From Thiobacillaceae bacterium (GTDB taxonomy: Bacteria > Pseudomonadota > Gammaproteobacteria > Burkholderiales > Thiobacillaceae), in NCBI GenBank assembly GCA_025458005.1, contig JALOTG010000044.1:1-35825 (forward strand): 35,825 nucleotides of DNA, in the 5' to 3' direction. The notes below the pieces were generated by a model that saw only the letters and a list, made by a program, of their open reading frames with translations, made no database searches and was not told the origin of the DNA. A program made the translations under genes and the position numbers. Shown here piece by piece: positions 9,644 to 35,825 of the stretch (the first letter of the stretch is position 1; each line of letters opens with the position of its first letter).

Positions 9644-10549
9644 TCACACCAGCAGGATGGCCAGCACGCCGAGGGGCACGGCCCAGACCAGGAACCAGCG
9701 GATGGACTGCTCCACCCGGAAGCGGGGGAAGACCACCCCCACGAACACCGAGACCAGGTAGATGCAGAACACCTTGAGGAAGAACACCGGCCAAGTGGCC
9801 GCGCCGCCGAAGAACAGGTTCATGTAGACCACGATCTTGGCGATGGGGAAGATGGCCCGGTTGGTCTGCATCAGGGCCAGGTAGGAGGAGTGGTACTCGG
9901 TGGGCGGGCCGATGGGTATCTCCTGGGGCGCCAGCACCACGTCGAAGGGCGGCCGCATCATGGAGCCGAGGAAGGCGAGCATGGCCGCCGCCACGGCGAG
10001 CGGGTTGGTGAACAGGGTCCAGTTTTCCACGCCGCCCTGCTGGGCGGCGACGATGTCGGTGATGGACAGGGTCTGGTACTGGAGCGCCACCGCGAACACC
10101 GCCAGGGCGAAGGGCAGTTCGGCGGCGGTGACCTGGGCCAGGCCCCGGCTGACGCCGATGGCCGCGTGGGGATGGCCGCTCTCCCCCGCCCCCAGGGCCA
10201 TGCCCAGGGTGCCGAAGAAGACGAAGTAGAGGGCCAGGATCAGGTCGCCGGCGAACGACAGGTTGGAGAACATCTCCGAGCCGTAAATCGTGGGCACGAA
10301 CAGCAGCAGGCCCACCCCGCCGGAGAGGCGGAACACCGGGCCCAGGTAGAACATGACGCCGTGGGTGATGGAGGTGCGCAGGCCGTAGTTCTTGATCAGG
10401 TCGGCGTAGTTCTGCCAGATGGGCACGCCGTGGCGGCGCCCCACCCGCGCGGCGATCTTCTGCATCAAGGCGCCCAGCAGCATGCCGTAGTTCACCACGA
10501 TGAACAGGGTCAGCAGGGCGTAGGGGATCTTGATCCACTCGAATGCCAT
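9644..10549 (-). CDS. NuoH-like membrane subunit
   Basis: Polytopic protein with IWQNYADLIKNYG, RPPFDVVLAPQEIPIGPPTEY and MNLFFGG...FFLKVFCIYL; position between the antiporter and NuoB-like genes. Confidence 0.88.
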   Translation of the reverse strand: MAFEWIKIPYALLTLFIVVNYGMLLGALMQKIAARVGRRHGVPIWQNYADLIKNYGLRTSITHGVMFYLGPVFRLSGGVGLLLFVPTIYGSEMFSNLSFAGDLILALYFVFFGTLGMALGAGESGHPHAAIGVSRGLAQVTAAELPFALAVFAVALQYQTLSITDIVAAQQGGVENWTLFTNPLAVAAAMLAFLGSMMRPPFDVVLAPQEIPIGPPTEYHSSYLALMQTNRAIFPIAKIVVYMNLFFGGAATWPVFFLKVFCIYLVSVFVGVVFPRFRVEQSIRWFLVWAVPLGVLAILLV

Positions 10550-32224: not shown

Positions 32225-32340
32225 ATCTGCAATGCTCATGGGCCCTCGACGGTTCGAGGTCGAAAATCCGCTGATGGCACAGGAATTGCTGGAATCAGGC
32301 TGAAGGACGGGGGTTGCGCCGTCCCCAACGAACCTCCCTG

Positions 32341-32361
32341 ACCGCCGCAACGGCGGTTTTT
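32341..32361 (+). terminator. Intrinsic terminator 1
   Basis: ACCGCCG-CAA-CGGCGGT followed by TTTT. Confidence 0.75.
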
Positions 32362-32364
32362 CGA

Positions 32365-32395
32365 GCGGCATCGGTTTCCGATGCCGCTTTTTTTT
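32365..32395 (+). terminator. Intrinsic terminator 2
   Basis: Perfect 10-bp stem GCGGCATCGG/CCGATGCCGC, TTT loop, T8 tail. Confidence 0.88.
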
Positions 32396-32544: not shown

Positions 32545-32558
32545 TTGATGGCCATCAA
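32545..32558. promoter_or_regulatory. FNR/ANR-type binding site upstream of fccA
   Basis: TTGATGGCCATCAA matches TTGAT-N4-ATCAA exactly; a -10-like TACCAT at 32582-32587 puts the box near -41.5. Confidence 0.7.
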
Positions 32559-32657
32559 GGAATCCCTCTTTGGTGGTTCAGTACCATATGTCGGACTGCG
32601 GCCAGGTACGGATGGCTCCACCATGGTCGTGCAGTGACTTTTTGTCTGGAGGAGAGC

Positions 32658-33102
32658 ATGCACAAAGTGCACCAAGGCATTGCGACGGCGATGACCGCCG
32701 TGGGCCTGATGCTGGCTGGCCTGGCCCAGGCCGCGCCGAATATCGAGGGACTGGCGCGCACCTGCAACAACTGCCACGGCACGGGCGGGGTGAGCGTGGG
32801 CACATCGATGCCCTCGATCGCCGGGCTGTCGGAGGCCTACCTGAAGCACATCATGATGGAATGGAAGAGCGGCGCGCGCGCCTCGGCCAACATGACGCGC
32901 CTGATCAAGGGCTACACCGACGAGGAGATCGCCGGCCTGGCCGCCTACTACGCCAAGCTGCCCTGGACGCCGCAGCCGCAGAAGGTGGGCGCGGACATCC
33001 TGGCCAAGGGCAAGGAGGCCACCGAGGATCAACAACGCCCGCAAGATGGACGCGGGCAACGTGCCCGTCGCCGCCGAGTTCTACGGCGCGCAAGGCAAGT
33101 AA
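32658..33102 (+). pseudogene. fccA: Flavocytochrome c cytochrome subunit with apparent internal deletion/frameshift near 33026-33031
   Basis: MHKVHQGIATAMTAVGLMLAGLAQAAPNIEGLARTCNNCHGTGGVSVGTSMPSIAGLSEAYLKHIMMEWKSGARASANMTRLIKGYTDEEIAGLAAYYAKLPW...GKEATED; C-terminal remnant MDAGNVPVAAEFYGAQGK* is in another frame. Confidence 0.75.
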
Positions 33103-33112
33103 GGGAAAGAGC

Positions 33113-34492
33113 ATGAGCCAAATCGATCGTCGCACCTTCATCAAGGCCCTGGCCGCCGCCTCTTCCGCCTCCGCCCTGTCATTGCCGTCGCTCGCCCTGG
33201 CCAAGACCAAGGCCAAGGTGGTGGTGATCGGCGGCGGCTATGCCGGCGCCACCGCCGCCAAGTACGTCAAACTGCTCGACAAGGACATCGAGGTGACCTT
33301 GATCGAGCCCAACCAGATCTACGTGTCCTGCCCGCTGTCCAACGAGGTGGTGGTCGGCCACCGCGACATCAAGACCCTGGCGGTCGGCTACGACGGGCTG
33401 AAGAAGCGCGGCGTCACCGTGCTGCACGACCTGGTCACCGGCGTGGACCGGGCCAAGAAGGTGGTCAGCACCAAGGGCGGCAAGAAGCTCGCCTACGACG
33501 CCTTGGTCATGTCGCCCGGCATCGACTTCCAGTACACGGGCATCGAAGGCTACACGGAGGCCCTCACCGAGCAGTTCCCGCACGCCTGGAAGGCCGGGCC
33601 GCAGACCCTGCTGCTGAAGAAGCAGCTCGAGGCGATGCCCGATGGCGGCGTGTTCGTCATCGTCGTGCCGAAGGGCCCGTTCCGCTGCCCGCCCGGCCCC
33701 TACGAGCGCGCCTCGCTGGTGGCCAACTACTTCCAGCACCACGGCAAGAAGAAGAGCAAGGTCATCATCCTGGACGCCAACGACTCGCACTCCAAGAAGG
33801 GCCTGTTCAACCAGGCCTGGGCCAAGCTGTACGGCTGGGAGAAGGAGGGCCTGGGCACCAACGGCATGATCGAGTGGGTGAAGGGCGCGGAGGGGGGCGG
33901 CGTCACCAAGCTGGACGCCAAGACCAAGACGGTGTCCTCCGACTTCGTCGACGTTAAGGCCGACGTGCTCAACATCATCCCTTCGCACAAGGCCGGCAAG
34001 ATCGCCGCCGACGCGGGCCTCACGGGCGCCGAGGGCAATAACTTCGAGAAGGGCTGGTGCAAGGTGGAGCCGATGACCATGGCCAGCGCGCTGGACGCCA
34101 ACATCTACGCCATCGGCGACAGTTGCGTGGCCGGCGAGATGCCGCTGTACGGCAACCCCAACGCGGCCTTCGACATGCCCAAGAGCGCGCACATCGCCAT
34201 GACCCAGGCCAAGGTGGCGGCCGCCGCCATCGTCGCCAAGCTCAATGGCCTGCCGACCCCCGAGCCCTACTACGCCAATACCTGCTACAGCGTGGTGGGC
34301 GACGACTACGGCATCTCGGTGGCGCACCTGTACCGGGTGGTCAACGGCACCTTCAAGTACATCCCGGAGGGCAGCGGCGTGTCCATGACGACCATGCCCG
34401 ACAAGTCGCCCGTGCCCGCCATCTACCGCAAGCTCGAGGCCGAGTACGCCGACGGCTGGCTGCGCAACGTCATCGCGGATGCGTTCGGCTGA
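33113..34492 (+). CDS. fccB: Flavocytochrome c sulfide dehydrogenase, flavoprotein subunit (Tat signal)
   Basis: DRRTFIKALAAASSASALSLPSLALA Tat-like signal; VVVIGGGYAGATAAKYVKLLDKDIEVTLIEPNQIYVSCPLSNEVVVG; GPFRCPPGPYERASLVANYF; NTCYSVVGDDYGISVAHLYRV. Confidence 0.94.
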   Translation: MSQIDRRTFIKALAAASSASALSLPSLALAKTKAKVVVIGGGYAGATAAKYVKLLDKDIEVTLIEPNQIYVSCPLSNEVVVGHRDIKTLAVGYDGLKKRGVTVLHDLVTGVDRAKKVVSTKGGKKLAYDALVMSPGIDFQYTGIEGYTEALTEQFPHAWKAGPQTLLLKKQLEAMPDGGVFVIVVPKGPFRCPPGPYERASLVANYFQHHGKKKSKVIILDANDSHSKKGLFNQAWAKLYGWEKEGLGTNGMIEWVKGAEGGGVTKLDAKTKTVSSDFVDVKADVLNIIPSHKAGKIAADAGLTGAEGNNFEKGWCKVEPMTMASALDANIYAIGDSCVAGEMPLYGNPNAAFDMPKSAHIAMTQAKVAAAAIVAKLNGLPTPEPYYANTCYSVVGDDYGISVAHLYRVVNGTFKYIPEGSGVSMTTMPDKSPVPAIYRKLEAEYADGWLRNVIADAFG

Positions 34493-34535
34493 GCGGGTGA
34501 CGAGTGACGCTGACCTTTTTCGAGGAAGGAGGCCC

Positions 34536-34568
34536 ATGACCGACACGCGAAACCTGACCGATGTCTAG
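34536..34568 (+). other. 10-codon ORF with a strong Shine-Dalgarno sequence between fccB and the ONR-like gene
   Basis: GAGGAAGGAGGCCC-ATG ACC GAC ACG CGA AAC CTG ACC GAT GTC TAG ([10 protein letters not shown]). Confidence 0.35.
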
Positions 34569-34572
34569 TACT

Positions 34573-34595
34573 GGCGGCCCCGCCGCGGGGCCGCC
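34573..34595 (+). other. Stable GC hairpin in the fccB-ONR intergenic region
   Basis: GGCGGCCCCG-CCG-CGGGGCCGCC, perfect 10-bp stem, no T-tract. Confidence 0.7.
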
Positions 34596-34623
34596 AAATC
34601 GAGCACCTGACAAGGAGATAAGC

Positions 34624-35825
34624 ATGAGGAAATCAAGCATCTGGGGACGAATGGCATCCGGCCTGGCCGCTGCCCTGTTCGCCTTCGGCGTGCAGGCGGC
34701 GGTGGACATCCCCAAACCGCAGATACCACCCCCGCCGCCCGAGAAGGCCCCGCCCGTCAAGCCGATCGACAGCAAGAAGTGCTATGCCTGTCACGAAAAC
34801 GTCGAGGATTGGCACACCCAGGGCCGTCACGCCACGGTGAACTGCGCCCATTGCCACGACGCTGAAGAGCACCTGAAGACCGCCAAGGGCAGCAACATGG
34901 GCACCCGTCCGGGCACCAACAAGGACCACCGCGCCTGCGCCACTTGCCACGTCGAGCAGTACAACACCTTCGTGCAGCCCAACCTGGAATCCCACGCCCG
35001 CGTCGAAAAGGCCCGCTACACCAGCCGGTCGCCCCTGTTCGACAAGCTGATGGAAGGTTACGGCTTCACCAAGGAGCACGCCGAGCCCCGCTCCCACGCC
35101 TTCATGCTGGTGGACCAGTGGGTGGTGGACCGCGCCTTCGGCGGCCGCATGCAGTTCAAGGACTGGACCTATGTGAACAAGGCCGAGCTGGCCGCCAACG
35201 GCGCCTGGAACGTGATTGTTGACAAGGAACCCAGCACCTCTGACCAGAAGCTCTTCATGCGCCAGACCGCCGCGGCCGTGAACCCCGTCTGCATGAACTG
35301 CAAGACGCAGGATCACATCCTGGACTGGGCCTACAAGGGCGACAAGCACCCCGCCGCCAAGTGGGACCGCACCTCCAAGCCGGTCGAGTTCGCCCGGGCC
35401 GTGAACCATCCGCTGAACTGCTTCATGTGCCACGATCCCCACTCGGCCAAGCCGCGCGTGGTGCGTGACGCCCTGATCGAGGCCGTGGTGGACCGCAAGC
35501 TGGGCACCTATCCCATGGACCCGGTGAAGAGCCAGCAAACCAAGATGGAGAAGGTGGTGTTCCAGCGGGATGGCAAGGACTTCCGCGCCATCGGCATGCT
35601 GTCCAAGTCCGACTCCAACCTGATGTGCGCCCAGTGCCACGTGGAGTATAACTGCGGCGTCGGCTTCGACTGCGCCGGTGCAGACGGCAAGGTCAAGATG
35701 ACCCCCGATCCGGACCAGAAGATGATCACCATGGCCGATCCGCGCACCAACCTGTTCCCGTGGACCAACGTCTTCGGCTACAAGAAGGTGATGACCGAGG
35801 ACTACAAGTTCAAGGACTTCAAGCA
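34624..35825 (+). CDS. Octaheme nitrite reductase (ONR/NrfA-related) multiheme cytochrome c, truncated at window end
   Basis: Signal peptide; haem motifs CYACH, CAHCH, CATCH, CMNCK, CFMCH, CAQCH in order; the CxxCK fourth haem and [10 protein letters not shown] are consistent with ONR. AAGGAG RBS. Confidence 0.85.

Follow-up and report, generated by a model that had tools for sequence, protein, structure and literature searches.

The closest described relative of the cytochrome considered here is TvNiR from Thioalkalivibrio nitratireducens (PDB 2zo5, 3f29), an octaheme nitrite reductase (ONR) with a CXXCK-bound catalytic haem and an Arg/Tyr-Cys/Gln/His active site, which reduces nitrite as well as hydroxylamine, sulfite and peroxide (PMC5433712). 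ONRs of this kind are hexamers and turn nitrite into ammonium. Crp/Fnr-regulated periplasmic nitrite reduction to ammonia is also carried out by the nrfABCDEFG and nrfHA systems, in which the CXXCK haem belongs to the pentaheme NrfA (regulation reviewed in PMC12285233). Sulfide oxidation by FccAB, as in Allochromatium and Thermochromatium (PDB 1fcd, 3vrd), involves a flavoprotein with the FCSD domains, a flavin-binding cysteine and redox cysteines, in combination with a dihaem FccA. We know of no established physiological electron donor for TvNiR-type ONRs. A literature search, with most subscription journals outside its reach, returned neither an fccAB-ONR operon nor a named donor for a TvNiR-type ONR. 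The role of multiple fccAB copies has been stated as open for Thioalkalivibrio (PMC6382920).

The enzymes of the present locus are already known; their arrangement and probable partnership are new. The ONR shares its octaheme composition, catalytic haem and active site with TvNiR but is encoded by the third gene of a predicted fccAB operon with a Crp/Fnr-type box, whereas in L067, the single Thioalkalivibrio locus whose sequence extends upstream, fccAB lies divergently from ONR and the FccB is unrelated. Similarly, FccB has the domains and cysteines of the Allochromatium and Thermochromatium proteins, and dihaem FccA is found in relatives, but FccB falls into a separate, ONR-tied clade and the FccA encoded here has lost haem 2. 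Unlike in the nrf systems, the nitrite reductase is octaheme and has no NrfB or NrfH partner, a sulfide dehydrogenase occupies the donor position, and the general ccm (haem attachment) operon adjoins the unit instead of nrfEFG.

The window, that is, the whole 35,825-nucleotide stretch of DNA analysed, is one complete contig (C164) of a 329-contig assembly which is ~90% complete, and it contains the following features:

32545..32558, strand not assigned: predicted FNR/DNR-type binding site TTGATGGCCATCAA, a perfect match at the head of the unit
32658..33102, plus strand: fccA, dihaem cytochrome subunit of FCSD, here with ~143 nt deleted near 33023 and a frameshift, haem 1 kept and haem 2 lost; the in-frame ORF extends to 33116
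33113..34492, plus strand: fccB, FCSD flavoprotein with Pfam FCSD domains, similarity to PDB 3vrd/1fcd, a Tat signal (RRTFIK), a flavin-binding cysteine and a redox cysteine pair
34536..34568, plus strand: 10-codon leader ORF with a strong Shine-Dalgarno sequence
34573..34595, plus strand: perfect GC-rich hairpin without a T-run, between fccB and ONR
34624..35825, plus strand: onr, octaheme nitrite reductase, 5' 400 codons, the rest being in contig C228 (584 aa in total)

The window ends with the contig, so that the ONR gene is complete at its 5' end and cut off at the other. Its last 99 bases overlap exactly with the reverse-read start of contig C228 from the same assembly, and although the join rests on this k-mer-like 99-bp overlap, it produces an uninterrupted 584-aa ONR and a gene order, fccA-fccB-ONR-ccmA...I, which is present intact in relatives. 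The joined protein contains eight haem motifs, seven CXXCH and one CXXCK (CYACH, CAHCH, CATCH, CMNCK, CFMCH, CAQCH, CKDCH and CLSCH), the same number as in all complete ONRs from the clusters, and its best PDB match over its length is TvNiR (2zo5, E=1e-221). The first-pass annotation, which had recognized an ONR-like gene ~130 bp behind fccA-fccB on the same strand, was thus correct, the ONR start lying 131 bp downstream of fccB; it had noted neither the contig break nor the fccA lesion, the leader ORF, the terminator behind ONR or the ccm operon. Residues Arg131, Lys188 (the lysine of CXXCK), Tyr303, Cys305, Gln360 and His361 of TvNiR correspond to R170, K227, Y342, C344, Q412 and H413 of the joined protein; all the TvNiR residues checked are present and invariant among the cluster proteins covering these positions. 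The protein is not a pentaheme NrfA, as the PRK11125 model yields 114 bits against a cut-off of 595 and there are eight haems. These features support assignment to the ammonia-forming type, with ammonium the probable product of nitrite reduction. A second, partial ONR with 55% identity is encoded elsewhere in the same genome (L033, contig C267), followed by a ccmF/nrfE-like gene, an order that recurs in Rhodocyclaceae and Comamonadaceae loci (L070–L077).

FccB contains the FCSD_central (6e-45) and FCSD-flav_bind (5e-18) Pfam domains, has 3vrd and 1fcd as its best PDB matches and carries Cys73, Cys192 and Cys391, which are kept in all aligned cluster FccBs; with these flavoprotein domains, the flavin-linked cysteine and the redox pair, it is an FCSD flavoprotein. 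In the tree, the cluster FccBs group together (97%) and away from the ordinary FCSDs that about half of the order possesses; 30 of the 32 members of this clade are linked to ONR, the nested members from genomes G129 and G187 being without one. In G187, the clade-type fccAB is located directly behind the gene for a nine-CXXCH cytochrome with a membrane cytochrome b-like part (L200), and a homologue of this cytochrome is encoded near ONR in L075, L076, L077, L081, L089 and L092. The genome under study encodes three other FCSDs with a monohaem FccA and no adjoining ONR.

The fccA gene called in the first-pass annotation does exist, starting at 32658, but is not intact. Its product aligns with FccA of G088 at 72% identity over residues 5–123 and then, in another frame, over residues 167–191. 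Compared with intact dihaem relatives, ~143 nt are gone between the codons for KGKEATE and NNARKM, removing the second haem domain, shifting the frame and leaving a single CXXCH. FCSDs have an intact mono- or dihaem cytochrome c subunit, and the intact FccAs aligned from close relatives all bind two haems; the window copy is deleted and frameshifted, possibly through misassembly. A search of all contigs did not find the missing piece elsewhere in the assembly, so that the loss may be a real lesion or a misassembly.

An ONR alignment, used to scan the genomes of named species, yielded 80 loci, to which further loci were added from genome searches. Thirty ONRs group in a single clade (97% SH-aLRT) whose sister group is the Thioalkalivibrio ONRs (99%); its members come under record titles that include Thiobacillus, Hydrogenophilales, Tepidiphilus, Gallionellaceae and unclassified Betaproteobacteria, although titles of MAGs may be wrong (one reads Bordetella parapertussis). 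In 29 of the 30, fccA, fccB and ONR are contiguous, fccB being the immediate upstream neighbour of ONR in the same orientation; the search for the same synteny in other genomes, proposed in the first-pass annotation, has therefore uncovered a recurrence which, judged by gene order, exceeds chance. The exception is L049, in which fccB and ONR are 5 kb apart. Beyond this clade, FCSD-ONR pairing was found only in L067 and in L079, where fccA-fccB is followed by an ONR from another lineage and the end of a ccm operon is just upstream of fccA. Independent recruitment of fccAB inside the main clade was ruled out, and the single origin of its FccBs points to long-standing vertical inheritance of the association there, with L079 and L067 as the only separate cases. 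Because the genomes are related, the cluster counts reflect long retention rather than independent origins.

Sequence signals delimit the three genes as a probable transcription unit. The perfect FNR box reported upstream of fccA was recovered at 32545–32558 and is one of only seven in the 3.19-Mb assembly, in which the reversed control pattern does not occur at all. When up to one mismatch is allowed, a TTGAT-N4-ATCAA box is present upstream of fccA in 23 of 28 clusters, 14 of them with a perfect copy, whereas only 4.8% of 480-bp segments drawn at random from these loci contain one; in L049, the box is missing before fccA and lies instead at -222 of ONR. At the other end, a strong terminator (hairpin and T-run) stands between ONR and ccmA in 21 of 23 clusters, whereas strong terminators within the fccB-ONR gap are present in 4 and absent from 20 of 24 clusters. 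On the plus strand of the window this gap contains no T-tract terminator, as had been claimed, the hairpin there lacking a T-run. A box before fccA and a terminator after ONR, but rarely in between, suggest that fccA-fccB-ONR is one unit, lending support, together with the conserved order, to the initial proposal. Of the 26 clade members whose sequence extends far enough past ONR, 23 have ccmA next to it, an adjacency consistent with the haem demand of an FccA-ONR pair, for which ten haems have to be attached, one of them to CXXCK; both types of haem motif are believed to be handled by CcmF/CcmI in Shewanella (PMC12285233). Inclusion of ccm in the operon was ruled out by the terminator before ccmA and by the loss of linkage in three genomes (L048, L050 and L051), in which fccAB-ONR is intact and ccm is absent or displaced; ccm is predicted to be a separate neighbour.

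An ORF of 9–11 codons with a strong Shine-Dalgarno sequence is found in the fccB-ONR gap of 17 of 29 clusters (0.07% in shuffled gaps), with a consensus near MTDAR-TTDV* and a stop codon that is kept while its type varies (TAA, TGA or TAG). A consensus stem corresponding to the hairpin is shared by 13 relatives, with compensatory changes in two of its eight pairs, which excludes strong covariation and permits a modest claim only. A known riboswitch or RNA family was also discarded, as the gap has no significant Rfam match. Translation of the leader ORF may keep the 130–160-nt gap occupied and shield the ONR mRNA from premature termination; alternatively, it may set the FccB:ONR ratio. In L095 (positions 9700–10000), a palindromic insert of ~180 bp is located within the gap, between the hairpin arms.

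An ‘FNR box’ is a site common to FNR, DNR and FixK proteins, and of the suggestion that the unit is FNR-controlled, the site is confirmed but the regulator is not supported. In 15 ONR-containing genomes, PRK11161 has no match at E<=1e-20, so that an E. coli-type Fnr, with its Fe-S cluster, was not found there. The genome under study encodes four HTH_Crp_2 (Crp/Fnr) proteins, three of which are without the N-terminal cysteine cluster and score best, below cut-off, with FtrB-type models. Two of the Crp/Fnr proteins are encoded next to nap, one divergently from napD with a one-mismatch box TTGACTTTGATCAA in between, and a related regulator gene lies just upstream of fccA in L048, L049 and L199. 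Given the failure to find Fnr and the presence of DNR/FtrB-like proteins beside nap and some fccA genes, a DNR-like Crp/Fnr activator shared with nap appears likelier than Fnr.

A connection of the unit to nitrate and nitrite reduction, implied by the initial reading, is supported by its genomic context. In three Thiobacillus-like genomes, napDAGHB directly precedes fccAB-ONR(-ccm): in two of these loci (L054 and L194), a box (TTGATTTTGGTCAA and TTGATTTCGGTCAA, respectively) stands before napD, and in the third (L065) the locus is cut by its contig. We interpret this arrangement of nap and fccAB-ONR(-ccm) as a predicted nitrate-to-ammonium island. In another genome (L055/L198), napDAGHB is 4.7 kb from fccAB-ONR. 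With gene content assessed through searches, napA was detected in 19 of 20 ONR-containing genomes tested in the family versus 8 of 20 without ONR, and within genus g4 in two of two versus none of nine. The genome under study carries napDA on one contig and napGHB on another, together with part of narG and one cytochrome d1-domain protein. Cytochrome d1-domain genes over the cut-off are present in 27 of 40 genomes, and narG in most as well; hence, the unit works beside denitrification, and nitrite has another sink, which counts against the reading given below, as do the damaged or misassembled fccA of the window, the two genomes that keep an FccB of this clade but no ONR, and the broad substrate range of TvNiR.

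We consider it probable that fccA-fccB-ONR is an operon of Thiobacillaceae-type sulfur oxidisers, switched by a Crp/Fnr-family protein, in which FccAB passes electrons to ONR for sulfide-driven reduction of nitrite to ammonium, serving detoxification; the locus is best read as serving the sulfide-driven ammonification or detoxification of nitrite. Under oxygen limitation and/or in the presence of nitrate, nitrite or NO, an activator, probably DNR-like, would bind the TTGAT-N4-ATCAA box and switch on transcription, which would end at the terminator after ONR. FccAB of the dedicated lineage would oxidise sulfide in the periplasm, electrons moving from sulfide through the FccB flavin to the FccA haems and from there to ONR, directly, as we infer, or via a small cytochrome, and ONR would reduce nitrite supplied by Nap or Nar to ammonium. 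Both half-reactions being periplasmic, topology implies that little energy is conserved and that no direct gain is to be expected. This low yield favours removal of toxic sulfide and nitrite with retention of ammonium, which is more likely than growth respiration. A stronger form, in which FccAB of this clade is the dedicated donor of ONR in a wholly soluble periplasmic sulfide:nitrite oxidoreductase making ammonium and balanced by the translated 10-codon leader ORF and the hairpin, is possible, but we advance it tentatively.

The genes could also be merely co-regulated, both products being needed under anoxia with nitrate, with FccAB delivering its electrons to the cytochrome c pool at large (to NirS or oxidases) while a different donor, for example a quinol dehydrogenase, supplies ONR. 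The reduction of small cytochromes by known FCSDs, the coexistence of denitrification genes and the two genomes with the same FccB lineage but no ONR are compatible with such a scheme; however, no NrfH/NapC-like donor gene accompanies ONR in the clusters examined, and nearly every clade member keeps the linkage, which reappears in other lineages (L079 and L067). We regard co-regulation alone as rather unlikely. A protective role of ONR during denitrification under sulfidic conditions, acting mainly on hydroxylamine, NO, sulfite or peroxide, would be in line with the substrate range of TvNiR (PMC5433712) and with the denitrifying gene complement. Considering the nitrite-making napDAGHB in front of the unit in three genomes, the tracking of ONR by napA in the family and the invariant nitrite-site residues, we regard this role as improbable. 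Least of all do we favour mere gathering of cytochrome genes at the ccm operon: frequent adjacency to ccmA and the position of ccm in L079 would fit, but fccA, fccB and ONR remain adjacent in loci that lack ccm or have it elsewhere, and the box and terminator delimit the three genes without ccm.

If FccAB is indeed the source of electrons for ONR, an ONR-locked FCSD lineage offers a concrete, testable answer to the questions of the ONR donor and of the multiple fccAB copies. Thiobacillus-like organisms commonly regarded as denitrifiers would then be expected to ammonify nitrite in a direct, sulfide-dependent manner, which matters for the loss or retention of nitrogen in sulfidic groundwater and bioreactors.

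Upstream of the fcc promoter, between it and a SnoaL-like gene, positions 32297–32395 might encode a small RNA, with a strong intrinsic terminator (32363–32389), a CCTCCC anti-Shine-Dalgarno-like motif and a weak Rfam match to the Burkholderia sRNA ncS54 (32 bits, gathering 43, E=9e-5); it was not found in related loci. Perfect boxes also occur elsewhere in the genome, for instance, upstream of a cytochrome gene (L041) and ~20–60 bp upstream of a hydrogenase small-subunit gene (L042; contig C314, positions 2330–2343).
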